This document shows positions 1,355 through 25,789 of a stretch of 34,776 bases of DNA, in pieces. Below the pieces are notes generated by a model. The model ran no database searches, was not told where the DNA came from, and saw only the letters and a list, made by a program, of their open reading frames with translations. Source of the DNA: a virus; the IMG/VR virus record IMGVR_UViG_3300024344_000061, positions 1 through 34,776 of that record. The stretch is one strand, 5' to 3'. Position numbers and translations under genes: made by a program. The first letter of the stretch is position 1, and every line of letters starts with the position of its first letter.

Positions 1355-1794
1355 TGGCTGATGAACCAATACCTATAGATGCTGTTATGTCTGACTTAAA
1401 TGGTCAGTGGGAAGCATCCAATGTAACAAAACCTTCGTTGACCACCGTAAATGGTGAAAGTCAACCATATCGTTTTGACTTAAATGTAGGAGACCACATA
1501 ATAGGAAGAACTGGAAGCCCAGCTTTTGATGAAGTTCCTTTAGGCAATCATAAATACGGTAATAGATTCTATAATATTGAACTAGAATTATTTACTTTAA
1601 CAAGTAGACAAAGACTATATAACTTGATGCAAGAAGTGCGTAGAATTATGCACGCTAGAAGGCACTCACTAACTAATTTTCAACGACAAATGTTTACAAC
1701 TTTTAATGAAGAAGTTGGGGAACAAGCAAATGTTTGGACAGGAACTGTTCAGATACAATTAGAAAATAACGGGGTTTTACTAGAAACTTCGTAA
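1354..1794 (+). CDS. Probable tail terminator / tail-completion protein
   Basis: This 146-residue protein starts on the TAATG overlap with the connector gene, with GAGG about 8 bases upstream. The middle has a helix with RLYNLMQEVRRIMHARR and the C-terminus has beta strands (VWTGTVQIQLENNGVLLE), an alpha/beta layout with alternating strands seen in gpU-type tail terminators. Between connector and tail tube is the usual place for that gene. No diagnostic motif is present, so it could instead be a neck (gp10-like) or stopper protein. It is the last gene before a promoter-like site, which suggests that the connector unit ends here. Confidence 0.35.
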   Translation: MADEPIPIDAVMSDLNGQWEASNVTKPSLTTVNGESQPYRFDLNVGDHIIGRTGSPAFDEVPLGNHKYGNRFYNIELELFTLTSRQRLYNLMQEVRRIMHARRHSLTNFQRQMFTTFNEEVGEQANVWTGTVQIQLENNGVLLETS

Positions 1795-1807
1795 AAATAA
1801 GTATAAT
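1792..1807 (+). promoter_or_regulatory. Promoter candidate upstream of the tail tube gene
   Basis: TAAAAAT at 1792-1798 is followed after 3 bases by TATAAT at 1802-1807. It lies in one of the few real intergenic gaps (50 bases), directly after a stop codon. Initiation about 7 bases past the -10 box would leave a leader of about 30 bases with GGAG (1832-1835) before the ATG at 1845. No convincing -35 box is seen. The same AAAAAT-spacer-TATAAT layout recurs at 10295, 16705 and 25773. Confidence 0.55.
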
Positions 1808-1844
1808 ATAAATATACGATATTAAAACAATGGAGTAAAACATT

Positions 1845-3692
1845 ATGGGAGTATATCGAAGCGACCAAGCACAATTAACATTCGCTGCTGAAGCAGCACA
1901 AGGAGCAGACCCTGAAATGATGGAGGGGAATCCAGTTTCTTCTTCACCGGCCAACGGGCTTTTAAACCACCCCACAACTGGATTGCCAGCGGGTAGTAGA
2001 AGTATAACTGTAAATGGTATTAGTAACACTTTTGTAGTAGGTGATTTCATAAGAATTGGTACTGTTCAAACTACCTATGCCTCTACTGTTGTGGAGCACG
2101 AAGTTAGACGTATTGAATCAATGGCTTCTGCTGGAGGTAGCTCTACCAATACTTTTACACTAGACAGACCAACTGCATTTTTTCACGATGATGATGAAGC
2201 AGTATATGAAGTAGATGGTTTAGGTGACGAAGGTGATGTTACCAGACATGGGGACAATAATAAATTTATAACTTTTATTCCGGGTATATATGAAACAATA
2301 GAAACTCCTGACCCTTCTATGAGTATTGAGGGAAGAAGATTTCTTAGTACTACATCTAAAAGAAATGTTTCGGTATTTTATCCGGGACAACAAACATTAA
2401 CAGGTGGTGTGTCAGGTATTGTCCTACTTAATGGGTGGCCTTTAAGATTCCCAATAGGAACCGTTCGTACTTTTCCAATAGCTAGTTCTACAAGTGGTAG
2501 TACTGGACTTACTCTTAATGGGGCGGTAAAAAAAGGTGACGTTTATATTCTTCTAAATGCTGTTACAAATTTAGTAGATGGTGACTATATTGTTATTGGA
2601 TATACTAGTGATGATTCAAATTCTACTGCTGAAGTAAGAAGAATAGTAGATATTATAAGTAGTAGAGTTAAATTGAATTACCCATTAAGTTTTGACCACG
2701 CAACCAGTACAGCTGTACGAGAATGTACAACTGCAAGCGTTTATACACACACTATTGAAGAAGCTGTTGATTTAGATACGGTTTCATGGCATGTACATAT
2801 GAAAGACAGTACAGAAACAGCCACAAAAAACTTTGATAGAAGATACATAGGAGGAATGATAGGTTCATCTACAATATCTGCTGAAGAGGGTGGAATGTTG
2901 TCTATGTCTTGGGATAGTGTAAACTTTCTAAATATGGTACATAACCAACAAAACCAAAAAACCGTTGGTGATGCTTCGGGGGATGACTATTATGGGGCTA
3001 GTATAGCTGCTAACATGCCAAGATATGGATTGATGCAAGCTATTGATTCAGACGATGTAGGAGAACCTAGTCACAATGGTGCAGCAGTTAATGACGGTAC
3101 CGGATATCCAACAACTTCTCCATATTATTTTTCACAAGGAACAATTAAATTCTTTGGGCAAGAGTTTGCTAGAATAAGAAGTTTTTCAATATCTGTTTCA
3201 AACGGAGAAGAACCAAGATATTATATTGGTAAACAGGGTGCAAGAGCAAGAGGACCTTTTGAAATCCGAGAGGGTGCAAGAGAGTACTCTATGTCAGCTA
3301 GTGTAGTATTACCAGACGCTGATAACACAGCTGCAGCGTCTGTTACCAATGCGGCCCAAGATAGTGCTTTAGAATTATTTAGACAATTACTATTAGAAGG
3401 TGATTATGGTGCTGGTGGGGGAAGTGTATACAGAAGAGGTTTCACAGCTAGTTTAAAATTTGAAAGAGGAACTAACGATTCTATAACTATAGACATACCA
3501 CCAGAGCTAGATGGCACAGTGGGGTCACCTACAGAAGGTACCGATAACACAAACCAATTAAATAAACAAGGTATTTTTATAAACTCAGCACCACATACTG
3601 TAACAACAGATAATCCATTTCAAGTAGATTTGGATATGGTGTTTAGAAGTTTAAGAATAACAATAGTGGATAGTATACCAGTATATCCATAA
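1845..3692 (+). CDS. Major tail tube protein with inserted beta modules
   Basis: This 615-residue protein is the probable structural unit of the tail tube. The segment from about residue 140 to 205 (FIPGIYETIETPDPSMSIEG, then SVFYPGQQTLTGGVSG) and the later beta-rich region with a C-terminal VDLDMVFRSLRITIVD are typical of tail tube or major tail proteins. It is much longer than most (often 150-400 residues) because it carries two extra modules, near residues 45-125 and 205-285. Each has the plan 'hydrophobic strand, G-D-[FY]-I-x-I, strand, E-V-R-R-I, strand, charged end', related to the repeats in the fibre gene at 5966. It has its own promoter candidate, consistent with a high-copy virion protein. 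Tail sheath is an alternative, but the paired chaperone ORFs that follow favour a siphovirus tube. Confidence 0.6.
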   Translation: MGVYRSDQAQLTFAAEAAQGADPEMMEGNPVSSSPANGLLNHPTTGLPAGSRSITVNGISNTFVVGDFIRIGTVQTTYASTVVEHEVRRIESMASAGGSSTNTFTLDRPTAFFHDDDEAVYEVDGLGDEGDVTRHGDNNKFITFIPGIYETIETPDPSMSIEGRRFLSTTSKRNVSVFYPGQQTLTGGVSGIVLLNGWPLRFPIGTVRTFPIASSTSGSTGLTLNGAVKKGDVYILLNAVTNLVDGDYIVIGYTSDDSNSTAEVRRIVDIISSRVKLNYPLSFDHATSTAVRECTTASVYTHTIEEAVDLDTVSWHVHMKDSTETATKNFDRRYIGGMIGSSTISAEEGGMLSMSWDSVNFLNMVHNQQNQKTVGDASGDDYYGASIAANMPRYGLMQAIDSDDVGEPSHNGAAVNDGTGYPTTSPYYFSQGTIKFFGQEFARIRSFSISVSNGEEPRYYIGKQGARARGPFEIREGAREYSMSASVVLPDADNTAAASVTNAAQDSALELFRQLLLEGDYGAGGGSVYRRGFTASLKFERGTNDSITIDIPPELDGTVGSPTEGTDNTNQLNKQGIFINSAPHTVTTDNPFQVDLDMVFRSLRITIVDSIPVYP

Positions 3693-3714
3693 ACAATAGA
3701 ATAAGGAGGCCTAT

Positions 3715-4077
3715 ATGGCAAAGCAAAGTAAAGCATTTGATATTTCAAAGTATCAAATTACAGGAGAATTGCAAGTTAAAAAATTAGTGATTGAGGAGAC
3801 AGGAGACGAGATAGAAGTTAAAGTCAAACCTTTATCGTGGAGCAGAAGAAACAAAATAGTTTCTAAATGCTTAAAGGTTTCAGAGACTGGGAACACTTTT
3901 GATGGTGACTTATACATCAGAGAATGTTTAAAGCAAATGGTTATGGAAGCTCCTTGGGGGGCTACTAATGAATCATTTTTGACAACCATTGATGAGAGAT
4001 TAGGAAAAGCTTTGGAAACTTTGGTACCGCAAGCAATGGATGGTGGCGGAGATGTGGGCGAAATAAAAAAAGGATAA
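3715..4077 (+). CDS. Tail assembly chaperone, upstream ORF (gpG-like)
   Basis: This 120-residue protein is acidic and mostly helical, with a short N-terminal beta part (LQVKKLVIEETGDEIEVKVK) and SWSRRNKIVSKCL, the usual plan of small tail-assembly chaperones that bind the tape measure protein. It follows the tail tube gene by 22 bases with a strong AAGGAGG site. It ends in a slippery A7 run four bases before its stop, so a fraction of ribosomes should shift by -1 into the next ORF and make a longer fused chaperone, as with lambda gpG/gpGT. Function is assigned from position, size and the frameshift site together. Confidence 0.65.
   Translation: MAKQSKAFDISKYQITGELQVKKLVIEETGDEIEVKVKPLSWSRRNKIVSKCLKVSETGNTFDGDLYIRECLKQMVMEAPWGATNESFLTTIDERLGKALETLVPQAMDGGGDVGEIKKG
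4065..4071 (+). promoter_or_regulatory. Programmed -1 ribosomal frameshift site
   Basis: Seven adenines lie so that the zero frame reads ATA AAA AAA GGA TAA, which is the X XXY YYZ slippery heptamer in register. A -1 slip reads AGG ATA ATG and enters the frame of the following ORF with no intervening stop, giving a fusion of about 203 residues. This placement, between two short ORFs after the tail tube gene and before the tape measure candidate, is the known arrangement for tail assembly chaperones in many siphoviruses. Confidence 0.75.
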
Positions 4078-4328
4078 TGGCTTTTCTACGGGGGGCTGCA
4101 GATATCACGGAGTATGAAGCAGTTCTCTACTCACACTGGATTGTTACTGTTCAGTTAATAGAAATAGGAGTTAGTTGGGAAGCCATACAAGGATTAAGTA
4201 ACGATGATATAAATATGATACTAGGGACTAAAGCAGCATTTATTCAGAGAGAAAATGATGAACATGCAAGGTCAATGGCTTCTAGTAAAGCAAGTATGCC
4301 AACAAATATAGGAGGAAAAAGATTTTAA
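4077..4328 (+). CDS. Tail assembly chaperone, downstream ORF (T part)
   Basis: This 83-residue reading frame overlaps the previous stop by one base. Its predicted main route of expression is as the C-terminal part of a frameshift fusion with the 120-residue ORF. The ATG lies only 3 bases after AGG, too close for a normal ribosome binding site, so independent initiation would be weak or coupled. It is helical, with LSNDDINMILGTKAAFIQRE reminiscent of the end of gpGT-like chaperones. It would bind the tape measure protein during tail assembly and is usually absent from the virion. Confidence 0.6.
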   Translation: MAFLRGAADITEYEAVLYSHWIVTVQLIEIGVSWEAIQGLSNDDINMILGTKAAFIQRENDEHARSMASSKASMPTNIGGKRF

Positions 4329-5423
4329 ATGGTATTTGGTGCAATAGGATTACTTAGAATGGCTAGTGGGGCTGTAACTTCTGGGGCTATGGCCTACGGA
4401 AAAGAAGCAGGCTTAAATATGGCTAGTAGAGTAGGTGCTACCGAGGGCACCGGAGACGAAAAAAAACTTAAAGAGGGGATAATAAATGGTCCCAAAGGAG
4501 TTATGACACGTCTTAAAGATGGAGCTAAAATGGCATCTAAAATGACTGGTGTAACTGCTAGTATATCTGCTATGCTAAAACAATCTCAGATTTTTACTGG
4601 TGTAGTAGGTTCTATATTTCAAATAATTGGTGCTCTTATAGATATTTTATTAATACCTTTAGTTCCTATATTTATGCCTATTGTTCAAAGTTTAGCAGTA
4701 CTTACAAAATATGCACTTGCAGCTAATGAAAAAGGATTTATGCCGGCATTAGCCTTTGTACCAGTGATTGGGCCATATTTATTATTAGCACACTCTGCAT
4801 CAATAGCTGCAGACTATGTATCGGACTATCTTAAAAACCTTGATTGGGGCAAGATAGGTAAAGATATGTGGGAAAATGTAAAAAACGCTTCTGGACTGCA
4901 ATGGCTATTTGGAACGGATAATATAATTCACAAAATGGGAAGAAAAATTGCAGACGTGGCACTTTGGCTTGAAACCGGACTTGAAGCTGTATTTAAAGAC
5001 TCATTAGCATTTCTACTTGAGATTCCTATTCAGCTAGTAACTTTAGTTAATTCCTTGATTGGCGTACTTAATCAAGCTAGATGGCCAAGTGCTGGAATAC
5101 TTGGAGGAGGAGGACTTATCTTTGGAAGTGGACTACCAGCACCTATTGAGCTTGAAAAATTCTTACGAAAGGAACAAAAGGATTTACGAGCAGGGGCAGA
5201 GGCATCTCGAATGAGATATGCTGACCGTTTTCCATTAGCGGGTTCAACTGAAGTGTTAACAAGAGAAACTGTTACTGACGCATTTGGGAATGACCGTAGA
5301 GTATTAGATGCAGACAGTTTACGAAGAGGGGTTGAGGCTATTTATCAAAATAGTACAAAAGCTTTAGTATACCACGTAGAGCGTGAACAAGAAATGTTAG
5401 ATATGGATTTTAGCTACTCATAA
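4329..5423 (+). CDS. Tape measure protein candidate (short)
   Basis: This 364-residue protein follows the chaperone pair directly, where the tape measure gene is expected. Residues 1-85 are Ala/Gly/Met-rich helices. A long hydrophobic stretch at about 87-125 (FTGVVGSIFQIIGALIDILL onwards), and further hydrophobic segments near 138-160 and 225-250, would suit the membrane-inserting parts of tape measure proteins. The C-terminal 100 residues are charged. If it is the tape measure, the usual 0.15 nm per residue gives a tail of only about 55 nm. Alternatives are a membrane-active injection protein, or a tape measure shortened by loss of its central repeats. GGAGG lies about 13 bases before the ATG, further than normal. 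Confidence 0.5.
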   Translation: MVFGAIGLLRMASGAVTSGAMAYGKEAGLNMASRVGATEGTGDEKKLKEGIINGPKGVMTRLKDGAKMASKMTGVTASISAMLKQSQIFTGVVGSIFQIIGALIDILLIPLVPIFMPIVQSLAVLTKYALAANEKGFMPALAFVPVIGPYLLLAHSASIAADYVSDYLKNLDWGKIGKDMWENVKNASGLQWLFGTDNIIHKMGRKIADVALWLETGLEAVFKDSLAFLLEIPIQLVTLVNSLIGVLNQARWPSAGILGGGGLIFGSGLPAPIELEKFLRKEQKDLRAGAEASRMRYADRFPLAGSTEVLTRETVTDAFGNDRRVLDADSLRRGVEAIYQNSTKALVYHVEREQEMLDMDFSYS

Positions 5424-5437
5424 ATAGGAGATGAAAA

Positions 5438-5956
5438 ATGTCAGATTTAGCAGTATTACTTAGAGATGGGACAAACTCCGGAGCTACAAACAGATATGCA
5501 TTAAAAGTAGACCAGTTGACTATTTCAGCGGGTAGACAACCAATTCAAATTCCAATGCCGGGGGCTTCTCCGATTATTCTTGACCTTGGACAAACAAGAC
5601 CAACTATTACGATATCTGGAATTATGGACAATATTGGTCAAGACACCACTAATACCACAGCAAACGCTTATTTTAATATGGAACAGCTAACAATTCAGGG
5701 GCAGACTTATTACGTACCATATAAGAATCATTTAGAAAGTAAATTATTAACTTGGACAACTGGAGATGATTTAGAACTAGAAGTAGGAGATGCAACTACT
5801 CCTGATTATTCTGGTTCTGGGACTACGGCTTCGACCGGTGGTGGTGTATATAAAGTAATGATAGCTCAATTTCAATTTAGTGTTGCTCCCGCTTTAGAGG
5901 ACAGATGGCAATTTAGTATACAATTTGTTTCCGAGTGGCGAACCGGTATATCTTAG
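5438..5956 (+). CDS. Distal tail / baseplate protein
   Basis: This 172-residue beta-rich protein has strands DQLTISAGRQPIQIPMPG and PTITISGIMDNI, then a C-terminal pair YKVMIAQFQFSVAPALEDRW and FSIQFV. The pattern 'ISG ... V.I..F.F...P....R..F.I.F' is typical of small baseplate or tail-tip beta proteins that sit between the tape measure and the fibre or hub genes. An AGGAG site lies 7-8 bases before the ATG and it is 9 bases from the next gene. It likely forms the ring at the tail end to which the large downstream protein attaches. The exact family is not certain. Confidence 0.5.
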   Translation: MSDLAVLLRDGTNSGATNRYALKVDQLTISAGRQPIQIPMPGASPIILDLGQTRPTITISGIMDNIGQDTTNTTANAYFNMEQLTIQGQTYYVPYKNHLESKLLTWTTGDDLELEVGDATTPDYSGSGTTASTGGGVYKVMIAQFQFSVAPALEDRWQFSIQFVSEWRTGIS

Positions 5957-5965
5957 GAGCTATTT

Positions 5966-8900
5966 ATGACAACAGTTAGTAAATCCATAGTATCTTATTG
6001 GGATGGGGATTCTTGGGAAGATTTTGCCGTTAGTGGTGTAACTCGACTATACTCTATGGTAATTTCTGACTCCATGAATACACCTAGAATAGCTAATCTT
6101 GTTATTTCTAATCATTCTACCAACCCCCAAGCTAATAGTGGTTCTGCAAAAGGACCATATACAGGCGTTGTTGGAGATTTTACACCTATTAAGATTCGTG
6201 ATAAAGATTCCGGAGAAATATATTTTTATGGTGCCGCTACTAGAGTTAGAGATGATTTTAGTCAAGACTCAGGAATGTTACTTAGAATTAAAGCGGAAGA
6301 TTACTTGTTTGAACTTAGAGACCAAGTTTCAGCAGGTAAATTATCTTTTAGACAAATAGCAAACGACAGAGCCCTAGTTGCTACCTTAAATGAAGCTTTA
6401 GATAATAGTGAAACAGAAATTACTGTTACCGATACTACTGAATTATTTCCGGGTATGCGTATAACGTTTGCTAGTAATGACGAAGAAATGCTTATTACCG
6501 AAATTAATAGTGGTACTTCTATAGATGTTGTAAGAGGTGTTAATGGTGAGTTTGATACGCACTCTAGTAGTGCTGCTATGTTTGAATCAGCAACTCCTAC
6601 AATTGCCTTTGTACCAAATGGTAGCCCTAAAAACACTAGCAAGAAACAGTGGAATCGTGCCATAGGAAGTCGTGGAGGATTAATTAAGTCTTTTATAGAG
6701 AATTACACAGATAACATAAGACATCCGGGTTCTTCAGTTCAAGTAAACGAAGCTATTGATGCTAGCGAAACCGAATTAACAGTTATTGATTCGACCGGAA
6801 TGTTTGTAGGCCAAATATTAAAAGTAGACAATGAGGAGTTGCTAGTAACAGCAGTTACTAATAAAACTACTATAACGGTAGAAAGAGAGTATCGAGGAAC
6901 AACTGCGGCAACTCATTCAGACAAAGCTATATTACAAGCAGTAGATGATAGATTTGATGAGTCAATAACTAACTATGTAAAAAACGGAATATTGAAATTA
7001 GCAAGTCAAGGAGAAAAATCTATACTAAAACACATTATAGAACAATCTGACTCTGAACCTCATTATGCATTAACAGCAGACCAGAATAGTTTTGGGTATG
7101 ACTTTTACATGTCACCTAATATTACTTCAACTGGAGACACATTACCCACAGCTTATTTTGACTACTTTAAAAAAGGAACTAGACCAACTAGTGAAACATT
7201 AGGACCAACAGCTTTTGGTTTAAATTTACATTATCCTTCTCCTGATACTATTACTAATGGTAGTTTTGTCACCACAGGTCGACAATACCCAATGTCTTCT
7301 AGTACCTTTGAAAGTCCTAAAAATGATGTTTATACCGATGCAGTTGTTCAATTTAATGCGGTTTCCCGGGCAGATAAGGGAGATGCAGTAGCACATCAAG
7401 GAAGTGAAACTTTTGAAGTACTTGAAGTTTATAATGTTAATACTTCTAGCAATGGATTTGCTTACCCGGGTAAAAATATAGCAGGAGGGGTATCAACAGG
7501 ATTGTCCTTTAATGATAGTGCCGAACCTTTTGCGACAGTAATGACTCAAATAAATATGGGCAGTGGGGTTGGAACTGGAGACACTACTTTGACTGTGGAC
7601 TCAACTACAGATATGTACGTTGGACAAATAATATTTTTAGGAGCGGGTCCTACTCCAGAACAAATTCTTATTACTTCTATAGATAGTGGAACACAAATAA
7701 CTGTGCAAAGAGCTCAAGGAGGCACGTCAGCAAGTACAGCCAGTGATGATGCACTTGTAAGAACTATAGTTGGCAGAATACAATATTTGACTGCGGGTAC
7801 AAACACCGTAAATTCAGACCCAGCAGTTGAAACAGCATTTATGTTAGTTTCTGAATTAGACCAGTCATTACAAGATTCAACTGTTGTTTGGGGTACAGCT
7901 TCAGCAGCACCGGCTCTTAATGTTTTTTATGGAGTTAATTCAAATTATTCCTTTAACTTAAAAGCTGGGGGTAGGCCTAGAATAAAACTAGGTGTTAGAA
8001 GAACATCTAAAATAAAGATTTCTGCTACAACTGACCCAGACACTATTCGTGAACAAATAATGGCAAATTTAATGAGAAATCAAAGCCCACCGGTTCGGGG
8101 GGAAATTGAAACTGTGTTTCCTCCACATTTTTATATTGATAATGTTCCAAGTGCTGTGTCAGGTACCGGAACAGCTGAAATAACTGTGGGTAACACTCTC
8201 TTAACAGGTACTTTAAATGAAGGTTTAGATGACAGTGAAACGGGTATTGATGTAACTGACTCTACTGGTATGTATGTAGGTCAACGTATAAAAATAGATA
8301 GTGAAGAGTTTGCTATTACTGCAGTTAACAGTAAAATATTAATTACTGCTACTAGGGCTCAAAATTCTACATCAGCTGCTGAACATACAAGTGGAGCAGC
8401 TATATATGACAGTAATGTAGATTTAACTAAGTATGGATTCCGTACTGGTATGTGTATAAATGAATTAGACTCTAACAATCAACCTACTGGAACTTACGGA
8501 TATGCTACTTGGGTGGGGTCTAGTAAAGTAAAAGTTACATGGGCTACAGGAAGTGTTTCTACTAGTTCTACACTAAGATACTATATTCCAGTTAGAGCTG
8601 GAGATACAATGAGAGTAAGAAACGACATATCAAATGTAGACACCACTGTTACAGTGACTGGATACGTATATGAAGAAGGTAGTGGTAGGTCTTCTACAAA
8701 ATATAACATTGTTGAGTCTACAACTGCTTTAGTTCCTAACAATGCTTCAAAAAGTTCTATTGTTGCAGCGGGTACTTCAGCAGCCACAGATGATAACTTA
8801 CCATCCGCACCAGAACTATCAGCTGATGCTAATGTTTTAACAACTTGTACTTTTTCCTCTTCATCTGCTAGTCAAGTAAATTGGAGTTCAGGTAATTTAT

Positions 8901-9691: not shown

Positions 9692-9903
9692 TGGCAGAAG
9701 GCGATGTAACAGTATCAATGACTTTTTCAGAGGCTCAATGGGATAGGATTGAGGCAGCTTCAGGGCATATAAAAGGTGGCTGGGAATTAAACCCGGCAGA
9801 AACTACTGTAGATGCAAACTATTTAGCTACACACTGGAAAAATGAACTAAGCACTATTGTAAAAAATTACGAACTGTCTCTTAAAACGACAGATGATTTC
9901 TAA
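9691..9903 (+). CDS. Small protein downstream of the fibre, function unknown
   Basis: This 70-residue acidic protein starts on a TAATG overlap with the fibre stop, with AAGGAG about 10 bases upstream, so it is translationally coupled to the fibre gene. It contains MTFSEAQWDRIEAASGHIKG and no motif I recognise. Small genes directly after fibres are often fibre-assembly or virion-tip accessories, but nothing in the sequence proves this. It overlaps the next gene by 11 bases. Confidence 0.6.
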   Translation: MAEGDVTVSMTFSEAQWDRIEAASGHIKGGWELNPAETTVDANYLATHWKNELSTIVKNYELSLKTTDDF

Positions 9904-10261
9904 AATCATACAATATAGATACGATAATCCACACGACACTTTACAACAAATAGGAGATGCCTTTGATGTCTCCCGTCAATATGTTTCTAAAGTCTTACTT
10001 GATAATGACATTCCTACTGTTCGGGCGAAAAGGCAAAAAGATGTTAAATACTGCCTGCACTGTAAAGAAATAAGTACAACCTTAGTTCATAAAGGCAGTT
10101 GTTACTTCCAATATTACAACATAAAACTTACATGTACTTATTGTCGAGTACCTTTTTATAGAAAAAGAGCTGATATAATTCATAAGTACAAAAGAGGTTA
10201 CAAAAAAAACTACTGTTCACATCAATGTTTTCATCAACATAGACGCAATCGGTTTAATTAA
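9893..10261 (+). CDS. HTH and zinc-finger protein, putative regulator
   Basis: This 122-residue basic protein has an N-terminal helix-turn-helix at about residues 12-38 (TLQQIGDAFDVSRQYVSKVL), like sigma region 4 or LuxR-type recognition helices. It then has a Cys-rich half: C54-x2-C57, C70, C81-x2-C84 and C108-x3-C112, with YCSHQCFHQHRRNR at the end. The last part resembles the zinc ribbon that often precedes HNH endonucleases in phages, but the HNH catalytic motif itself is absent. The layout suggests a DNA-binding regulator. It starts inside the end of the previous gene and stops 104 bases before the sigma-like gene, so it closes the late tail unit and sits at the late/early boundary. Confidence 0.55.
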   Translation: MISKIIQYRYDNPHDTLQQIGDAFDVSRQYVSKVLLDNDIPTVRAKRQKDVKYCLHCKEISTTLVHKGSCYFQYYNIKLTCTYCRVPFYRKRADIIHKYKRGYKKNYCSHQCFHQHRRNRFN

Positions 10262-10294
10262 CTATAAAATTAAACGAAATTCGTAGTATTTTTC

Positions 10295-10311
10295 TAAAAA
10301 TATGATATAAT
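10295..10311 (+). promoter_or_regulatory. Extended -10 promoter before the sigma-like gene
   Basis: TAAAAAT (10295-10301) is followed after 4 bases by TATAAT (10306-10311), and TG at 10303-10304 gives a full TGnTATAAT extended -10 box. It lies in the 104-base gap between the HTH/zinc gene and the sigma-like gene. A short perfect palindrome, ACGAA-A-TTCGT, lies at 10274-10284 just upstream. This is the best placed promoter for the control and replication block. Confidence 0.65.
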
Positions 10312-10329
10312 AATAGTACATTGTAATAA

Positions 10330-10343
10330 ATCCCAGTAGGGAT
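10330..10343 (+). promoter_or_regulatory. Small inverted repeat in the leader of the sigma-like gene
   Basis: ATCCC-AGTA-GGGAT is a perfect 5-base stem with a 4-base loop, about 20 bases downstream of the -10 box and 23 bases before the ATG. It has no U run, so it is not a normal terminator. It could be an operator for the adjacent HTH protein or a 5' mRNA hairpin. No good Shine-Dalgarno site follows; AGTAGGGAT is 23 or more bases from the start. Confidence 0.4.
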
Positions 10344-10365: not shown

Positions 10366-10908
10366 ATGCAGATTAATAATGATTTAATATTACAGTGGGA
10401 ACCTAAAATCATGAAAATGGTTGGGAATACCTATATTGCAGGCATGGATAGAGAAGATGTTGCTCAAGAACTTCGTATTGCTCTTATGAAAGCCGCAAAA
10501 AAGTATGATGAAAGTAAAGGTGCTATTTTTCATACTTACTTACACACTTCACTGATAAACACTATCAGAACCCTAATTACTAAAGCTCAACGACATCCTA
10601 ATTTTGTTAGTATTGACAACAATCCATACGATACAACTGATACAGGATTCTATACATCTGAAATAGCAAAAATTATGTCTAAAGAAGCAAAGGAGTACGA
10701 AGAAGTGGACACTGATTTACTGATACATACTAACGACGAAAACGGTAATCCAAAGTTACACCCTAACGAAAAAGAATTTGTATTCTATAAGTTGCAAGGT
10801 TTGACCATGGACGAAATAACCAAAAAGCTTGGAGAGTCATCTTATAAAGTAAGACACTCAATAAGAGAAAAATTTACAGATTTACTAGCTGAGACCGATG
10901 AAATTTGA
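10366..10908 (+). CDS. Phage sigma-like transcription factor
   Basis: This 180-residue protein has a sigma region 2-like helix set at residues 28-72: MDREDVAQELRIALMKAAKK, then YDESKGAIFHTYLHTSLINT, close to the '(E)D..QE....l..a...yd...g.F.tyl...i.n...' pattern of sigma70 region 2. Residues 133-172 have a region 4-like HTH (FVFYKLQGLTMDEITKKLGE, then SSYKVRHSI). It should bind host core RNA polymerase and direct it to phage promoters, perhaps the AAAAAT/TATAAT sites found here. An acidic linker (about 105-130) joins the two domains. It has its own promoter, no clear ribosome binding site, and overlaps the next gene by 11 bases. Activity on any given promoter is inference. Confidence 0.7.
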   Translation: MQINNDLILQWEPKIMKMVGNTYIAGMDREDVAQELRIALMKAAKKYDESKGAIFHTYLHTSLINTIRTLITKAQRHPNFVSIDNNPYDTTDTGFYTSEIAKIMSKEAKEYEEVDTDLLIHTNDENGNPKLHPNEKEFVFYKLQGLTMDEITKKLGESSYKVRHSIREKFTDLLAETDEI

Positions 10909-16704: not shown

Positions 16705-16722
16705 GAAAAATGATAGTATATA
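16705..16722 (+). promoter_or_regulatory. Promoter candidate for the DUF3310 gene, probably leaderless
   Basis: GAAAAAT (16705-16711) is followed after 5 bases by TATATA (16717-16722; a TATAAA alternative starts at 16719). The ATG begins at 16729, 6 bases past the -10 box, which is where transcription would start. No Shine-Dalgarno site lies in the 6-base spacer. It sits in a 34-base gap after the polymerase stop. Confidence 0.5.
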
Positions 16723-16728: not shown

Positions 16729-16998
16729 ATGGGCAAGTATAACGAAGAACAAATAATTAAAGAAATAGCAGAGTATGTAAACAATACATACGACGAACAT
16801 TACAGTGAGGGTGAAGTACAAACACTAGACTTTATAGATGCTTGTGGAGATGCCCCTGCTTTTTGTAGAAGTAACATTTTAAAGTATGCTTCAAGATATG
16901 ATAAAAAAGGAACCCCCAGAAAAGATATATTAAAAATAATACACTATGCAATGTTACTATTGCATTTTAATGATAAAAGAGTTGAAAATGACAACTAA
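16729..16998 (+). CDS. DUF3310 family phage protein
   Basis: This 89-residue helical protein has the DUF3310 pattern: an N-terminal helix, then TLDFIDACGDAPAFCRSNIL, KYASRYDKKGTPRKD and IHYAMLLLHF, matching 'iDfi.....l.ff.gNvlKYi.Ry..K.g..DL.Ka.hYl..l'. The family is common in phages, often near nucleotide metabolism genes and sometimes labelled nucleotide kinase, but its biochemical role is not established. It appears to be read from a leaderless message. It overlaps the next gene by 11 bases if that starts at 16988. Confidence 0.75.
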   Translation: MGKYNEEQIIKEIAEYVNNTYDEHYSEGEVQTLDFIDACGDAPAFCRSNILKYASRYDKKGTPRKDILKIIHYAMLLLHFNDKRVENDN

Positions 16999-19482: not shown

Positions 19483-20123
19483 AACGAAAAAATCCTACCG
19501 CACCTAAAGATTTGTGGCTAAATGAAATAATTGATGACTATTTAAGAGGTACTATGTCTGCTCCTAGACCGGGAGTCTTTCATCCATCAGTTATAAGTAA
19601 TGCTTGTGATAGATACGTTTGGTTATGTTACCATGGTAAAATGGTAGACCAACCATTACCAGCAAACCTACAAAGAATTTTTCAGAATGGAAACTACTTA
19701 GAAGATAGAGTAGGTCAATGGCTTACTGATTTGAACCTATTGATAGATAGAGAAGTTTCAGTAAAACAAGACATACCGCCAATTTCAGGTAGAATTGACT
19801 TTTTAATCAAGCATTATAATTATGGAACACTTCCAATTGAGCTCAAATCTATAAACACTGCGGGCTTTACGAAGCTAAAGAAACCTAAACCTGAACATCA
19901 AGTACAAATTCAAATGTATTTAAATATGGGCAATTACGACATGGGTACAGTTTTGTATGAAAATAAGAATGACCAGAAGATAAAAAGCTTTCTGGTAGAA
20001 AAAGACCTTGTACAGTGGGATGAAATACTTAAGAGATGTTTTAATATACAAGAAATGCTAATACCACCTGAAAAATGTTCAGGAGCTACTTGGTGTAATT
20101 GTCGTAAAGTTGAGGGATATTAA
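19452..20123 (+). CDS. Cas4/RecB-like PD-(D/E)XK exonuclease
   Basis: This 223-residue protein has HPSVISNACDRYVWLCYHG (C52, C59), NGNYLEDRVGQWL (E84), GRIDFLIK (D116), IELKS (E130, K132) and HQVQIQMYLNM (Q153-x-x-Y156), the full RecB-family set. It ends with KCSGATWCNCRK (C209, C215, C217). One or two N-terminal and three C-terminal cysteines around the core resemble the iron-sulphur arrangement of Cas4 and AddB, so a 4Fe-4S cluster is possible although the spacing is unusual. It likely resects ends for the RecA-like protein. No cas genes or CRISPR array lie nearby, so it is not evidence for CRISPR. Confidence 0.8.
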   Translation: MAGIKQIKPVERKNPTAPKDLWLNEIIDDYLRGTMSAPRPGVFHPSVISNACDRYVWLCYHGKMVDQPLPANLQRIFQNGNYLEDRVGQWLTDLNLLIDREVSVKQDIPPISGRIDFLIKHYNYGTLPIELKSINTAGFTKLKKPKPEHQVQIQMYLNMGNYDMGTVLYENKNDQKIKSFLVEKDLVQWDEILKRCFNIQEMLIPPEKCSGATWCNCRKVEGY

Positions 20124-20124
20124 T

Positions 20125-20628
20125 ATGGAAGAACGAGAAACTAAATGGAGTCCAATGAAAGCATTGGGTAAAGCTCAAAAAGAAGTTGATTCTTTAGGGT
20201 TACCACCACTAGTTGTTAACTTAGAAGATAATGATACCTTAGAGTTTTCTAAATTAAACACTTATGATAATAAAATATTAGCTGATTTTTTAGCTATGTA
20301 CGGTGGTTACAAAGCTTATTTAGAAACAAAAATAGCAGACATTGAATCTAAGGTTGGGGCTCTCCAAGCTGCTTTTAATGAGGGTTATAGCACCGCTTTG
20401 TTCAGAGTTGTAAAACAATATGAAGAAACGGACCGGAAGAAACCAACTAAAGATGAGTTAAAAGGCGAAGTTATGGATAGTTACGAGACTCTAAGAGAGT
20501 TGAAAAAAGACCTAATTGAACAAGAAGCTACTCTAAAAAAGACACAAGGATTGCTAAATACTTACACAACTGCTTATAATACAGTTAGTAGAATAGTTAC
20601 CTTGCGAACAAATGGTGAACGCTTATGA
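20125..20628 (+). CDS. Coiled-coil protein of the recombination block
   Basis: This 167-residue protein starts at ATG 20125 with GAGG 9 bases upstream, one base after the nuclease stop; a TTG at 20110 is less likely. The second half is a long helical coiled coil (VMDSYETLRELKKDLIEQEA and flanks) ending TAYNTVSRIVTLRTNG. It has no recognisable catalytic motif. Between a RecB-like nuclease and a RuvC-like resolvase, it may be a recombination accessory such as an annealing or loading factor, but this is inference. It overlaps the next gene by an ATGA junction. Confidence 0.55.
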   Translation: MEERETKWSPMKALGKAQKEVDSLGLPPLVVNLEDNDTLEFSKLNTYDNKILADFLAMYGGYKAYLETKIADIESKVGALQAAFNEGYSTALFRVVKQYEETDRKKPTKDELKGEVMDSYETLRELKKDLIEQEATLKKTQGLLNTYTTAYNTVSRIVTLRTNGERL

Positions 20629-21080
20629 TGTATTTAGGTTTAGACACATCTAGTAAAGCAATTCATGGGGCAGTGGTTAACCCAGAGGAAGAATTGGTTT
20701 GTTTGTACAAATGGGACTGTGATACCAAGAAATCATTTGAAGAAAGATTCCCTGAGTTGATATCTAATTTTTCCAAGGAAATCAGTACAATAAATAATAT
20801 AGACTTTGCAACAATAGAAGCATCAATATTTGCTCAAAACAGAAGTGTCGTAGGCACCTTAGCTAGCGTTGTTGGTGCAGTATGGGCAATCTTAGTGTTA
20901 CAAGGTATTCCAACAGTGCGTGTGGATAATAACACATGGAAAAAAGATGTTGTTGGAAAAGGAAATGTGAAAAAAGACGAAATTAAAAGATTCGCTGAAG
21001 AAAAGTGGGGAGATAAATTCCCCGAACAAGACTACGCTGATGCTGCTTGCATAGCGTTATGGAACAAAAGGAGGTTCTAG
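20625..21080 (+). CDS. RuvC-like Holliday junction resolvase
   Basis: This 151-residue protein has an RNase H-fold core: MMYLGLDTSSKA (D7), ATIEASIFAQN (E65), a long helix with SVVGAVWAILVLQGIPTVRV, and QDYADAACIAL (D136, D139). These four acidic residues match the RuvC active site. The size is close to RuvC. It would resolve branched DNA made by recombination and clear concatemers before packaging. It starts at ATGATG overlapping the previous stop; either ATG could serve. It is one base from the next gene. Confidence 0.8.
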   Translation: MMYLGLDTSSKAIHGAVVNPEEELVCLYKWDCDTKKSFEERFPELISNFSKEISTINNIDFATIEASIFAQNRSVVGTLASVVGAVWAILVLQGIPTVRVDNNTWKKDVVGKGNVKKDEIKRFAEEKWGDKFPEQDYADAACIALWNKRRF

Positions 21081-21081
21081 T

Positions 21082-21597
21082 ATGAGTATTGCAGGAGGAC
21101 TACAAAAAGTAGTAAGAGGCTTTCAAATGGCTTTTCCCGGTAAAAAGGAAGAGATAAAAAGAGAGTATAAAGATAAGTTTCCGAAAAATTTACCGACACT
21201 TGAAGATGTAAAAAAGAAATATGGTACTGTTGTATGGTGTAAATTTGCTAAATGTGGCAGTAATCAACAAGTAAAAAACTTACAAACAACTACAGGAACC
21301 TTACTAAAAAAGGTAGGGTATACCCCAATTGTAGAACAAGAACACATTTGGGCAGGAATATGCACTAGAGGTGAGATAGGAATGCAATATACAGAAATGA
21401 AGATGCCTCATGGAGCTAAAATAAAAGTTCCTAGTTGTTATACAGCACACACAGATAAAACAGGATATTGGGACTTCTCTCAATTCTTAAACTCAGATGG
21501 AAGCCCATTAGGGGGTAACATTGATTCCCAACATGTTTCTACTGCAGGATATGGAATGAATGATTCTAACAGTATATATGACCAATTCAAAGACTAA
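21082..21597 (+). CDS. Cysteine-containing protein of unknown function upstream of terminase
   Basis: This 171-residue protein has AAAAGGAGG before the ATG. It contains WCKFAKCGSNQQ, later ICTRGEIGMQY and VPSCYTAHTDKTG, so a zinc site from C-x4-C plus two further Cys is possible. The N-terminus is basic (residues 10-40). I recognise no family. It is the last gene before the terminase pair, a position often held by HNH nucleases or small packaging accessories, but no HNH motif is present. Confidence 0.55.
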   Translation: MSIAGGLQKVVRGFQMAFPGKKEEIKREYKDKFPKNLPTLEDVKKKYGTVVWCKFAKCGSNQQVKNLQTTTGTLLKKVGYTPIVEQEHIWAGICTRGEIGMQYTEMKMPHGAKIKVPSCYTAHTDKTGYWDFSQFLNSDGSPLGGNIDSQHVSTAGYGMNDSNSIYDQFKD

Positions 21598-21602
21598 TAA
21601 TT

Positions 21603-22103
21603 ATGCCAAAACAAATACCAGATAATATAAAACTAAAGGCGATGGAATTATTCCTACAGGGGGACAAAACAGCTAAACAAATTGCTGAAGAAGTCTCCAC
21701 GGATGACCACGCAGTTGCTCCACCTACAATTTATATGTGGGCTAAGAAGGATAAATGGGGAGAACAGAAAGCAGTTGCTATTGCAGATACTCAGAGAGAC
21801 TTAGCTGAGTCTGAGGGCCAAAGGTTCGCTAGACTTCAATCTGAACAATTGGATACTTATACCGAACTTGCCAATAAGGCGGGTAGAGAAATCAAAGGAC
21901 TAACTTTTGACCGACCTTTAGATGCTGCTAGGGCTGCAGATATAGGTATAAAAGGACAAAGAGAAGTTCTTCAAGGTATGATAAATATGGAATTTGTACA
22001 AGATATTATGACAGTTTTAATTGAAGAGATTACAGACCAAGATATTTTACAAAAAATTGGTGTGAAATTAAAAACTATTGAACAAAAACATAGAGATATA
22101 TAA
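21603..22103 (+). CDS. terS: Terminase small subunit
   Basis: This 166-residue protein has an N-terminal helix-turn-helix (residues 8-50: KLKAMELFLQGDKTAKQIAE, then TIYMWAKKDKWG), typical of small terminases that recognise the packaging site, followed by a helical oligomerisation region and a C-terminal segment ending KTIEQKHRDI that would contact the large subunit. It is 2 bases from the large subunit gene. It selects phage DNA and starts packaging. Confidence 0.78.
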   Translation: MPKQIPDNIKLKAMELFLQGDKTAKQIAEEVSTDDHAVAPPTIYMWAKKDKWGEQKAVAIADTQRDLAESEGQRFARLQSEQLDTYTELANKAGREIKGLTFDRPLDAARAADIGIKGQREVLQGMINMEFVQDIMTVLIEEITDQDILQKIGVKLKTIEQKHRDI

Positions 22104-22105
22104 AT

Positions 22106-23782
22106 ATGGCTAAAGATGTGGTAAGCGTTGAGAACGCCTTTAATATGCTATCCGATGGATTACTTGAGCAAAAAAGGTATGAAGTTGGTTCCTTTAGAGA
22201 GTTTATAGAAAATATTTGGGCACACTCATATGATAATCCAGAGTATTTTAAAGCGTGGCATGTAAGTTTACTTGCCGAAGATATTGAGGAATGTTTAGAA
22301 ACAGGTCTAAACTATGTAGGAGTTCTTCCCAGAGGACATTTTAAATCCACTATATTAGGACATGCTTTTAGCGTTTGGAGATTATTGAAAGCCCCTAGAG
22401 ATATGTCTATACTTTATCTATCTTATAGTGACGGTATGGCTAAATATCATATTGCAGAGATAAATAAAACAATTGCTAGAAATCCTATTATCCCAGAATT
22501 ACTTGTAAATCGTAATCCAAAGGCTGATTTCTCGGCTAGATTTTATAAGAACAATAAACCTATGGAAATTATGCATGGTGGGTTGTTTTCTTTTAAAAGA
22601 GGTATGCACGTCAATGGTGCCCTAGTTGCTGATGACGTATTAAGAGACCCAGAGAACCCTTTAAATATAGGGCAAATAACTAAAGTAGAAGACCACTTTA
22701 TGACAGAATCCATGTTCATACCATTGAAAGAAGCTCCTGTTATTGTAGTGGGTACACCTATGATGCCAAACGACATACTAGCTAAGTTACAAGATGATGA
22801 ACGATTCAAAGCTAGAGTGTTACCCGCACTAGACCCGGTGCCGGGGAGAAGAGTATTAGCCCCAGAAATAATGAGTGAGAAATACTTGTTAGCCCAACAA
22901 AAAGCTAGACCTAAATCATTTGCTTCAGAGTTTATGTTGATTCCTCATTTTGCTACAGAGGCTTATTTCAACGAAGAGGATATTACTAAGTGCGAAGACG
23001 ACTCATTGAGGTCATACCCATCTACTAAAAAGTTCACTGGTTGGGAAACCGGAGACCAAATTTTTGGTGGATTTGATGTGGGTAAGAAAAAACACCCATC
23101 TCATTTAGTTTTATTCAGGAAACGGGGTGAGGAGTTACAACAAATACATTCGTCTTTTCTAGACGGGTGGAGTTACTCCGACCAAATTGAATTTTTAAAT
23201 GAAGTAGCTGATAACTTTGATTTAGATGGGGGTTATATTGATAACACTCGAGGGGAGCTTGAAGACCGAGGATTAGACGCTAGGTGGCGACCAATGAATT
23301 TCACAAGAAAAAGTAAAAATACTATGGCTGGAGTCTTCGAAAAGTTTGTCCATGCTGGTATATTAAAACTAATAAAGGATGAGCGACAGAAGCAACACAT
23401 CCTGTCTGTAAGTAATGACTTGAAGGCACCCGATACTCCAATGGGACATGGGGATGCTTTTTTCTCGATTGCAATGGCTTTACAGGCAGCCCATGACACG
23501 GCTTATAAGTTTGTAGACTTAGGCAGTGCTACGGATTGGTTCAACGCTATTAGTCCGGGGGAAACACCTGAGAGTCGAAAGATGATGCAGGATGAGATGA
23601 AAGGACTTTCAGAGGACCAACAGAAAAAGTTGTCTTCTTTAAATCCTTTACAGATGGAGCCAGTAAATCCATCTGAGATAGCTTCCTCCGCACCCAATCC
23701 TCAGTGTAAGGAAATGGTATGTAGTGCTTCTTTTTGGGTTCCAGAAAGAGGACTATGCCTTTATTGTGGACACAGAAAGTAA
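22106..23782 (+). CDS. terL: Terminase large subunit with C-terminal zinc ribbon
   Basis: This 558-residue packaging motor has a Walker A-like PRGHFKST (75-82), LYLSYSDGMA, Walker B ALVADDV (D176, D177; the usual DE is DD) and VIVVGTPMM (coupling motif). The RNase H-like nuclease domain has GGFDVGKKK (D324), GGYIDNTRG (D379) and HGDAFFSIAM (D450). Beyond the nuclease there is a 100-residue extension ending in C534-x4-C539-x11-C551-x2-C554-GHRK, a zinc ribbon not usual in TerL. It pumps DNA into the prohead through the portal, which is encoded 2.5 kb downstream after the ribonucleotide reductase. Confidence 0.9.
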   Translation: MAKDVVSVENAFNMLSDGLLEQKRYEVGSFREFIENIWAHSYDNPEYFKAWHVSLLAEDIEECLETGLNYVGVLPRGHFKSTILGHAFSVWRLLKAPRDMSILYLSYSDGMAKYHIAEINKTIARNPIIPELLVNRNPKADFSARFYKNNKPMEIMHGGLFSFKRGMHVNGALVADDVLRDPENPLNIGQITKVEDHFMTESMFIPLKEAPVIVVGTPMMPNDILAKLQDDERFKARVLPALDPVPGRRVLAPEIMSEKYLLAQQKARPKSFASEFMLIPHFATEAYFNEEDITKCEDDSLRSYPSTKKFTGWETGDQIFGGFDVGKKKHPSHLVLFRKRGEELQQIHSSFLDGWSYSDQIEFLNEVADNFDLDGGYIDNTRGELEDRGLDARWRPMNFTRKSKNTMAGVFEKFVHAGILKLIKDERQKQHILSVSNDLKAPDTPMGHGDAFFSIAMALQAAHDTAYKFVDLGSATDWFNAISPGETPESRKMMQDEMKGLSEDQQKKLSSLNPLQMEPVNPSEIASSAPNPQCKEMVCSASFWVPERGLCLYCGHRK

Positions 23783-23820
23783 TAGATAAAAAAATAAAAA
23801 TACAGGAGGACCTCAGTTCC

Positions 23821-25764
23821 ATGACGACAGAAATAAATCGAAACGAAATAACAGACCAAGTAAAATTATCAGACCAAGCAAGTGTTATATTGGAACACAG
23901 ATATCTTTTAAAGGATACCAACTCAGAAATTATTGAATCTCCTACTGAATTATTTAGACGTGTAGCAAAAGCTATTGCACTAATTGATACAGATTATTTA
24001 TCTTTACCAGTCGAAGCATCCTTAACAGAACAAGATTTTTTTATGATAATGAAGAACTTAGAGTTTGTGCCGAACTCTCCAACACTTATGAATGCCGGAA
24101 CAGAACAAGGAACTTTATCCGCATGTTTTGTTTTGCCTTTAGAGGACAGCATGGAGGGTATTATGAAAGCATCACATGATGCAGCAATGGTTCAAAAGTT
24201 TGGTGGGGGGACTGGGTTTGCCTTATCTAAGCTTAGACCGAGGGGTGACAAGATTAAATCAACCCATGGAATTGCTTGTGGTCCAATTGAAGTGCTAAAA
24301 ACATTATCAAGAGTATCATCAATGATTACCCAAGGAGGTAAAAGAGATGGAGCAAACATGGCAGTTATGTCTATATACCACCCCGATATTTTAGATTTTA
24401 TAACCTGTAAGTCAACTGAAGGAGAAATCCACAACTTTAATATTTCTGTGGGTGTGGACTCTAACTTTATGGAAGCCGTTGTAAACAACATGGAATATAA
24501 TTTGATAAACCCAAAAGATAATTCTATTGACGGAAGCCTAAATGCTCGTGACGTATTCAACAAAATTGTTGATGGGGCATGGAAAAATGGTGAACCCGGA
24601 ATGATATTCTTAGACCAAGTAAACAAAGACAATCATGTTTCTGAACAATATGGTGATATGATTGCTACTAACCCGTGTGGAGAACAACCATTATTAGGTA
24701 ACGAATCTTGTAATCTAGGTTCAATAAACCTAGCTAAGTTTTATACAGCTTCAGAAGACTCTAGTAATGGGTGGGAAGAAAAGATAGATTGGGCTAGACT
24801 AAAACATGTTACTAGAACATCGGTACACTTTTTAGATAATGTAATAGACGCTAATAAATATGCTACTCCAGAAATTGAACAAATGACTAAAGCAACAAGA
24901 AAAATTGGATTAGGAATTATGGGATTTGCAGACTTACTTATTCAAATGCAAGTACCTTATTCATCTGATTTAGCTAAAGAAATTGGCATGACTATAATGT
25001 CTAAGATTAGGACATGGGCTGATAAAAAATCTATTGAACTTGCTGACCTAAGAGGAACCTTTCCTGCATGGGACAGTAGTAATTATGATAGAGAAACAGA
25101 AGCGTACAGGAATCATTGTAGGCTTACAGTTGCTCCAACAGGCACAATTTCTATGATAGCTGATACATCTAGTGGAATAGAACCTACCTTTGCTTTAGCT
25201 TGGAAAAAACAAAATATATTAGATGGTAAAACTTTGAATTATATAAATAAATATTTTGAGGCTGATGCTAAAAAATACGATTTTTATTCAGAAGACTTAA
25301 TGGATTACTTAGCTGAAGGGGGTTCATTAGAATCAGTACCTCAAGTTCCCGACTGGGCTAAAGAAGTATATGCGACTGCTCCTGAGATTTCACCTGAGAA
25401 TCATGTTCTAATGCAAGCAGCTTTTCAAAAAGGTTGTGATTCTGGAATATCAAAAACAATAAACTTTGCAAACTCAGCTACTCGTGAAGATGTAGAGAAA
25501 GCTTATATTCTTGCTTGGGAAGAAGGATGTAAGGGTATTACAGTATATCGAGCTGGCAGTAGAGAAAAAGAAGTTTTGGTAAAAGGTAATGCTGAAAAAT
25601 CAGAGCAACTCCAACTTGATGGGTTTGACATAGAACAAAATGCAATAAATGAGGTTGTTAATCATAAGGCAGAGTACGATTGTTGTGGTAATCCAAATGT
25701 AATTTTTGAGTCTGGTTGTGAGACCTGTAAGTCCTGTGGGTGGAGTGCTTGCAAGATAGCGTAG
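23821..25764 (+). CDS. nrdJ: Ribonucleotide reductase, class II (B12-dependent)
   Basis: This 648-residue enzyme reduces ribonucleotides to deoxyribonucleotides using adenosylcobalamin. The active site is readable: SACF (C102), NPCGEQP (N284, C286, E288) and ESCNLGS (C297, 11 residues after C286, the same spacing as C408/C419 of the Lactobacillus enzyme). GGGTGF, APTGTIS and an R/S[11 protein letters not shown] motif are also typical. The C-terminus is a zinc-ribbon-like swivelling tail, CCGN then [12 protein letters not shown]. No N-terminal ATP cone is present. I start at ATG 23821 with GGAGG 11 bases upstream; upstream TTG/ATG codons lie inside terL. The product supplies dNTPs for replication. 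Its position between terminase and portal is unusual. Confidence 0.93.
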
Positions 25765-25772
25765 GTAAATAC

Positions 25773-25789
25773 GAAAAATATAGTATAAT
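25773..25789 (+). promoter_or_regulatory. Promoter candidate for the portal/head unit
   Basis: GAAAAAT (25773-25779) is followed after 4 bases by TATAAT (25784-25789), in the 55-base gap after the reductase gene. Initiation near 25796 would leave a leader of about 24 bases with AGGAG just before the ATG at 25820. It shares GAAAAAT, the AG before the -10 box, and TATAAAGA downstream with the site at 16705. Confidence 0.6.

Follow-up and report, generated by a model that had tools for sequence, protein, structure and literature searches.

The 34,776-base linear fragment IMGVR_UViG_3300024344_000061 of the IMG/VR collection (GC content 36.7%), hereafter the window, carries a small gene for a sigma factor and a set of conserved TATAAT-containing elements that may serve as promoters of two classes, one of them belonging to the virion genes. 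The genes used in the analysis are all on the plus strand and leave 699 intergenic bp (2.0%) in 24 gaps. Pfam matches of the encoded proteins comprise a DnaB-like helicase, a family A polymerase, RecA, a ribonucleotide reductase, a portal protein, for which the match falls under the curated cut-off, and an SU10-type capsid protein; the assignment of 22106-23782 as the terminase is our own reading, with no Pfam match there. Viral contigs contain many relatives: the capsid gave 398 stretches, the terminase 181 and the sigma factor 377. The long ones reach 64-97 kb and the window is therefore part of a genome, a 34.8 kb piece where complete genomes of the group probably measure 65-97 kb. No close relative was found among named phage records (8 matches for the capsid, 6 for the terminase, 10 for the sigma factor and only distant ones for the polymerase), nor was a prophage or infected-cell relative present in the genome contigs scanned with the capsid and terminase alignments. 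The matches of the capsid protein (32559-33893) among the named records are all haloarchaeal tailed viruses (HCTV-1, HCTV-5, HVTV-1 and their kin), with about 30% identity over 37%. For comparisons across the group, 138 of 278 sequences (277 loci and the window) were kept as non-redundant, totalling 1.37 Mb of which 3.9% is intergenic, and gene classes were contrasted on dereplicated sequences of less than 90% identity.

In the initial annotation of the window, four intergenic sites with AAAAAT followed after 3-5 bases by TATAAT or TATATA had been listed as one promoter class. These sites lie at the places given there (1793/1802, 10296/10306, 16706/16717 and 25774/25784), and the pattern AAAAAT.{3,8}TATA[AT][TA] has four plus-strand matches in the window, all in gaps, and none on the minus strand. 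Their number is beyond chance, since it was reached in 0 of 2000 dinucleotide-shuffled sets of gaps, as was the number of copies of AGTATAAT and of GTATAATA; the count of bare TATAAT was matched in 2 of 2000. All four plus-strand copies of GTATAATA are intergenic, and so are the four of AGTATAAT, at 1800, 25782, 30733 and 31569. Two further TATAAT sites reported at 30735 and 31571 are present as described, but AGTATAAT is also found at two of the listed sites, 1800 and 25782. No window site has a TTGACA-like -35 box (at least 5 of 6 matches at a spacing of 16-18), in agreement with the initial annotation. The single class did not hold: the sites at 10306 and 16714 have the form TG-n-TAnnnT, while 1802 and 25784 group with 30735 and 31571. 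For the site listed at 16705, TAGTAT at 16714-16719 is the better -10 candidate. The six elements are as follows, with the frequency of each form in the corresponding regions of relatives.

1802-1807, plus strand: late -10 element (A)GTATAATA ahead of the tail-region gene 1845-3692; GTATAAT in 3 of 3 regions.
25784-25789, plus strand: late -10 element ahead of gene 25820-26266 and the portal gene 26269-28251; GTATAAT in 35 of 39 regions.
30735-30740, plus strand: late -10 element, 5 nt 5' of the ATG of gene 30746-31306; GTATAAT in 8 of 10 regions.
31571-31576, plus strand: late -10 element ahead of the scaffold-like gene 31695-32528 and the capsid gene 32559-33893; GTATAAT in 38 of 39 regions.
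10303-10311, plus strand: early TGA-TATAAT of the sigma operon, of the extended -10 host sigma70 type; GTATAAT in 0 of 40 and a TGnTA-like element in 20 of 40 regions.
16711-16719, plus strand: early TGA-TAGTAT of gene 16729-16998, 9 nt 5' of the ATG; GTATAAT in 0 of 20 and a TGnTA-like element in 14 of 20 regions.

The same element recurs throughout the group. Across the 138 sequences, 142 of the 206 sense-strand copies of GTATAATA are intergenic; part of the other 64, which are genic, may reflect simple gene calls. The opposite strand has 4 intergenic and 23 genic copies. Equal density inside genes, which had been named as speaking against a promoter class, is thus not observed. Four unrelated scrambles of GTATAATA gave 0-3 intergenic copies in these sequences, and a fifth, TATAATGA, which itself contains TATAAT, gave 20. 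The commonest 8-mer in the 60 kb of intergenic sequence of the group is AGTATAAT, with 153 copies, outranking the ribosome-binding 8-mers, and this ranking revealed no other recurrent motif, ribosome-binding and leader sequences aside. The AT-rich marine phage HTVC023P (35% GC, 3,713 intergenic bases) has one intergenic copy of GTATAATA and none of AGTATAAT.

The position of the element depends on the class of gene that follows. GTATAAT occurs within 130 nt upstream of four virion-module genes in 84 of 91 dereplicated regions, in none of 60 upstream of the sigma gene or of 16729, and in 4 of 248 upstream of seven operon-internal genes; a TGnTA-like element shows the reverse, with 0 of 91, 34 of 60 and 6 of 248, respectively. 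The elements at 10306 and 16714 are therefore assigned to early promoters of the host type, and those at 1802, 25784, 30735 and 31571 form one late class, which lacks TTGACA and TG. An independent sample was obtained from at least 167 further stretches retrieved through the conserved capsid-leader core alone, with no selection for a promoter. Among the matches listed, 157 had enough upstream sequence, of which 88 remained after dereplication, and GTATAAT was found within 150 nt upstream in 87 of these 88 loci, mostly 45-59 nt before the core, compared with 22 of 697 windows drawn at random from these sequences. Downstream of the core, the first gene that can be recognised is a homologue of 31695 in 166 of the 167 listed stretches, the remaining one being too short.

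The initial annotation had also proposed that an A-rich element replaces the -35 box and defines a dedicated phage promoter class. Such a class exists and is common to the relatives, but the A-rich element does not define it: AAAAAT stands ahead of just 19 of the 175 intergenic GTATAAT sites in the 138 sequences, and a run of five A occurs once among 30 scaffold/capsid sites and once among the 28 of the 30746 family, counts that rule out the A-run as the class-defining element. In the best conserved late promoter, that of the scaffold/capsid family, the sequence is T-rich where the A-run would be, and TAGGATTTT is conserved in the -35 region at a fixed distance. An A-run is present at 1802, and an A-rich stretch is kept in the promoter family of 25820. 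This last observation, together with the A-runs at four window sites, above chance in the gaps, would suit a single class with the A-rich element for a -35 box which includes the promoter of the sigma gene itself and so implies autoregulation. That explanation is improbable and mostly refuted by the low A-run counts and by the lack of GTATAAT in all 60 regions upstream of the sigma gene and 16729, which also rules out any single class that includes the sigma gene promoter.

In 35 of 117 late sites a further sequence, AG[AG][ACT]WWWT (AGRnWWWT), is placed exactly 21 bases 5' of TATAAT, and no other offset has more than 4; 12 of the 129 dereplicated late sites were set aside for this count, having a start closer than 11 or TTGAC upstream. 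In the scaffold/capsid family, AG[AG]nWWWT occurs at -21/-20 in 22 of 30 sites. All four late sites of the window show AG[AG][ACT]WWWT or a variant of it:

1782-1789, plus strand: AGAAACTT, candidate -35-region element at offset -20 (a variant, shifted by one), overlapping the end of gene 1354-1794.
25763-25770, plus strand: AGGTAAAT, candidate upstream element at offset -21, overlapping the stop codon of the ribonucleotide reductase gene.
30714-30721, plus strand: AGACTTAT, candidate upstream element at offset -21, contained in the 3' end of gene 29404-30729.
31550-31557, plus strand: AGGATTTT, conserved intergenic element upstream of TATAAT, at offset -21.

The conservation of the last element was read from the columns of 37 dereplicated rows, two of which are anchored on the wrong copy of GTATAAT; the counts by gene class are independent of this alignment. 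As AGAAACTT overlaps coding sequence, its constraint cannot be ascribed to a promoter alone.

Ordinary sigma70-type promoters are present in the same genomes. In the 81.5 kb relative G009, genes of the early region have TTGACA-N16/17 promoters, and all 8 strong non-coding plus-strand sigma70-like sites are at 50.7-64.1 kb, while 12 of the 14 GTATAATA sites outside long open reading frames fall elsewhere. The Hsp20-like gene just 5' of the sigma gene in G009 is preceded by TTGACA-N17-CATACT.

The sigma-like reading frame noticed in the initial annotation is a genuine sigma gene.

10366-10908, plus strand: phage sigma factor of 180 residues, with a sigma2 domain at about 8-76 (PF04542, 2.6e-11), a variable linker and a sigma4-like helix-turn-helix at about 130-172.

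PF04542 (sigma region 2) was found in 27 of 27 homologues, all of which also match TIGR02937, the sigma70 model of the extracytoplasmic function (ECF) family; the window protein scores 45.2 bits over residues 6-164, above the cut-off of 42.9. Region 4 is less distinct, with weak Sigma70_r4_2 matches in 21 of 27 homologues at E up to 1 (best 5.6e-4). The AlphaFold model has a mean predicted local distance difference test score of 74, with mostly 83-93 in the two domains, near or under 50 in the linker, and the C-terminal helices modelled. Its residues 1-75 align to sigma70 region 2 at a root mean square deviation of 2.3-2.8 (e.g. 1sig, Z 9.2, 2.3 over 70 residues), and nearly all of the top rows in the Foldseek/VIA lists, of which the best rows were considered, are sigma factors. 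On the sigma70 side the alignment stops near residue 451, ahead of the segment that recognises the TG of extended -10 promoters, which fits late promoters that have no TG. Residues N65 and R68 are invariant among the homologues and fall, by our reading of the alignment, at sigma70 positions that contact the -12 base pair. Among 31 long records, 23 encode PF04542; in the remaining 8 the adjacent DnaB gene is missing as well, so that they are probably fragments, and a further 8 of 8 long records encode the domain. All long records in which a sigma gene is expected thus have one. It is a core gene of the group and its product is ECF-like: a sigma2 and a sigma4-like domain are present and sigma3 is absent. 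The sigma reading frames of four relatives (L181, L185, L196 and L187) contain in-frame insertions of various lengths at the turn of the region 4 helix-turn-helix (LG|ESAYKVR), which in L181 and L185 comprise about 35 residues and are Cys-rich.

One record departs from the common pattern. G032 (96.9 kb) has the leader core with no GTATAAT before it, and the scaffold operon has TTGACG-N17-TATACT further up; its sigma factor is the most diverged found in region 2.4 (VNRAINL, compared with VNTIRTL or similar in others). The record keeps 4 or 3 intergenic copies of GTATAAT, depending on the gene calling used. At L453/G032 a short gene carries the leader hairpin core at its 3' end; upstream there are further leader sequence and a promoter of the sigma70 type in place of a late promoter. 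The G032 exception is what would be predicted if the phage sigma factor read the late sites. Covariation of the base at -14 with the sigma factor was considered for two other records, G038 and G039, and rejected, since both CG and AG occur there and no rule emerges.

Some of the late sites are very close to the genes that they precede. Among the 129 dereplicated sites, 34 are within 14 nt of the start codon and 19 are at exactly 11 (TATAAT-5-ATG), as at 30735. A Shine-Dalgarno-like sequence accompanies 6 of the 34 close sites versus 75 of 89 sites at 25 nt or more, which fits transcription starting at or beside the ATG; judged from this arrangement, the mRNA of 30746-31306 is probably leaderless.

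The scaffold/capsid transcript, by contrast with these, would have a leader (31577-31694) that separates gene 31695 from the promoter at 31571; its core, GGUCGGA(GG)UGGCUNAGACCAACC, has 16 invariant columns in the 37 rows used of 39. It contains two hairpins:

31583-31598, plus strand: hairpin in the minimum free energy fold, where the capsid-operon mRNA probably begins; relatives have stems of other sequence there.
31618-31649, plus strand: conserved leader hairpin with core GGUCGGAUGGCUAAGACCAACC; compensatory changes in 5 of 8 pairs.

In the conserved hairpin, 96.6% of alignment cells pair versus 86.6% in shuffled alignments, and the covariation score is 0.355 versus 0.164 (0 of 500 shuffles); slid versions of the hairpin gave lower pairing and a lower score. 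The minimum free energy fold of the window sequence pairs the AACCU side of the hairpin with the Shine-Dalgarno region at 31680-31685 instead (z-score -1.1, weak on energy alone). No Rfam match was found at E up to 1, and a role of this RNA as a translational switch is a guess. Since a conserved structured RNA lies directly 3' of 31571, the conserved sequences could be regarded as parts of leader or terminator RNA, or as replication or packaging sites, in place of promoters. This is quite improbable, as the motif is strand-specific, recurs before unrelated genes that have no such RNA, and keeps a fixed leaderless distance to the ATG where the Shine-Dalgarno sequence is missing.

Taken together, the data favour, at a probability of about 0.6, a model with two promoter classes in which an ECF-like phage sigma factor, made early under host sigma70, directs the host core polymerase to the late GTATAATA promoters. 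Host RNA polymerase with sigma70 would first read the early promoters, namely TTGACA-N17-TATAAT in the early region and TG-n-TAnnnT at the sigma operon, and one of the early products would be the sigma factor. The latter would bring the host core enzyme to (A)GTATAATA at -10, which in many cases has AGRnWWWT some 21 bases upstream of it, and the late promoters of the head, portal and tail modules would be switched on in this way. Some late transcripts would start at or a few bases from the ATG, and the scaffold/capsid transcript would begin with the structured leader, which may add translational control. The data show the conserved sites, their split by gene class and the sigma gene of the long records; the start points, the timing and the reading of the late sites by the phage sigma factor we infer.

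Several observations weigh against this model. TATAAT itself is the -10 consensus of sigma70, and to our knowledge ECF sigma factors are not known to favour it. A TTGACA-like box (at least 5 of 6, 16-18 bases) is present at 10 of the 129 dereplicated GTATAAT sites, compared with 1.9% in shuffles, and some of these sites are therefore probably host promoters. G038 and G039 are changed in the same sigma region as G032 (NTLITL) yet retain GTATAAT, so G032 is a single case. The AGRnWWWT element comes mainly from three promoter families (22 of 30, 8 of 17 and 7 of 28 sites) and overlaps coding sequence at three of the four window sites; counted by family, AG[AG] is barely above background (5.2 of 25 at the best offset versus 4.5 elsewhere). 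Direct alignments of the window sigma factor with those of the cultured phages discussed below, phiEco32 gp36 and 7-11 gp47, were not significant. At two of the sites with a TTGACA-like box (L258:2074 and L270:2052), GTATAAT is combined with a perfect TTGACA at 17 bases; they are ordinary sigma70 promoters with a G at -13 as well.

In the main rival explanation, host sigma70 needs no phage partner and reads promoters of both classes without a -35 box, through TG in the early class and through G plus a perfect TATAAT in the late one. Timing would then depend on DNA replication, on the strength of the promoters or on an activator from the phage, and the phage sigma factor would serve other, unseen sites. 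The identity of the late -10 with the sigma70 consensus speaks for it, as do the TTGACA-like boxes at late-type sites, including the two TTGACA-N17 cases. However, -35 boxes are nearly absent from the late class and so is TG at -15/-14 (1 of 129 sites), the two classes are strictly separated by gene class, and ordinary TTGACA-N17 promoters occur in the early region of the same genomes. The unseen sites would, moreover, have to escape the 8-mer ranking of the intergenic sequence. On this balance we consider the explanation by sigma70 alone unlikely.

The model of a phage sigma factor can be extended to a two-layer switch, which we regard as tentative. Here an ECF/SigH-like sigma factor would read AGRnWWWT-N13-GTATAATA, a two-part promoter for which the literature searched gives no counterpart among phage sigma factors. 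The capsid operon would also be gated by its leader RNA, the core of which would either form its own hairpin or pair with the ribosome-binding site, and some late mRNAs would be leaderless by design, possibly in hundreds of uncultured marine phages. Promoters of SigH have the elements AGGA ... GAAT (PMC12456013). The AGGA-like upstream element here resembles this Bacillus type, and spore_sigH TIGR02859 (1.7e-7) is among the next-best curated matches of the window sigma factor. In contrast, the -10 is GTATAAT and not GAAT, the spacing is longer by one to two bases, and the protein is far below the model cut-off (30.9 vs 294.8 bits).

Late promoters read by phage sigma factors are known from cultured phages. 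In phiEco32, early genes are under sigma70, while middle and late genes are preceded by one element, tAATGTAtA, which the sigma factor gp36 reads, with starts 6-8 bases downstream; the missing -35 element is explained there by the lack of region 4 in gp36. In Salmonella phage 7-11, sigma factor gp47 has region 4 and reads late promoters of the form GTAAtg-(16)-aCTA (PMC8948821, PMC4331800, PMC4281155). The window group is similar to phiEco32 (Kuravirus) in the combination of an ECF-like phage sigma factor, host core polymerase, sigma70 early genes and one conserved -10-like late element. Moreover, tAATGTAtA and GTATAATA have GTATA in common, and the capsid proteins of both touch the phrog_1328 family. 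It differs in its late element, (A)GTATAATA, in having other hosts, in the AGRnWWWT at a fixed place in about one third of the late sites, which has no upstream counterpart in phiEco32, and in a region-4-like helix-turn-helix that gp36 reportedly lacks. With 7-11 it has in common a phage sigma factor with region 4, here a helix-turn-helix that matches this region weakly, and a promoter before late genes that is in two parts, here putatively; both promoter elements differ in sequence, the late promoters being GTATAATA and not GTAAtg-(16)-aCTA. The window sigma factor matches phrog_351 (1.4e-12) better than phrog_1740 (6.4e-7), the family that gp36 itself matches at 1.9e-45. Profile alignments of the window sigma factor, capsid and terminase to single phiEco32 sequences, a weak form of comparison, gave no significant match, and pairwise BLASTP with 7-11 gp47 gave E 0.02 over 90 residues. 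The group is not filed with phiEco32 or 7-11, because the promoter sequences differ, phrog_351 fits better and the direct comparisons are not significant. By analogy with these precedents it is plausible that the phage sigma factor reads the late class, and a late switch like theirs is most likely.

Bacteriophage T4 gp55 is a small phage sigma factor that reads -10-only late promoters, and its size (185 residues) and the look of its TATAAATA promoters are similar to those in the window. Binding of the sites by a T4-like, clamp-coupled late sigma factor of the gp55 family is nevertheless very improbable: gp55 belongs to phrog_234 (2.9e-69), to which the window sigma factor has no listed match up to E 1, its best families being phrog_351 and phrog_1740, so that kinship with gp55 has no support, and the late element is TATAATA and not TATAAATA. 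As for host promoters, the extended -10 form of sigma70 (TGnTATAAT) fits the sites of the sigma gene and 16729 and not the late sites, which have no TG but for one and mostly no -35. A literature search, with most subscription papers outside its reach, found no phage-sigma late promoter in uncultured phages.

With the late promoter class, sequence is enough to distinguish late from early genes in a large group of phages that has no cultured member. Each long record holds both the sigma gene and its presumed promoters, so that the specificity of sigma factor and promoter is open to study by natural variation, with G032 as the first case. If the link to the sigma factor is true, the strategy of phiEco32 and 7-11, known from enterobacterial phages, is widespread at sea with a promoter variant of its own. 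The capsid leader RNA represents a separate lead on phage gene control.

Other features were observed around the two promoter classes. The leader of the sigma mRNA has a hairpin at 10330-10343 (AUCCC-AGUA-GGGAU), and one was also noted upstream of the sigma gene in L182, L187, L264 and L275; the stems of relatives differ at the same place (AAUCC...GGAUU, GAAUCU...AGAUUC), suggesting covariation. Directly 5' of the sigma gene, 9893-10261 encodes a small protein with a sigma-region-4-like helix-turn-helix and a zinc-finger/HNH-like part, both weak matches, and the Hsp20-like gene of G009 is near the corresponding place. A dense cluster of TATAAT/TATATA copies is located at 31525-31544, 5' of the late capsid promoter, and relatives often have TATTATAAT nearby. 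Finally, a GC-rich hairpin with a UUCG loop (GGGGGGACUUCGGUCCCCC), also present in G009, lies 3' of the capsid gene at 33910-33932; it has no long T-run and so may be a terminator or a processing site.

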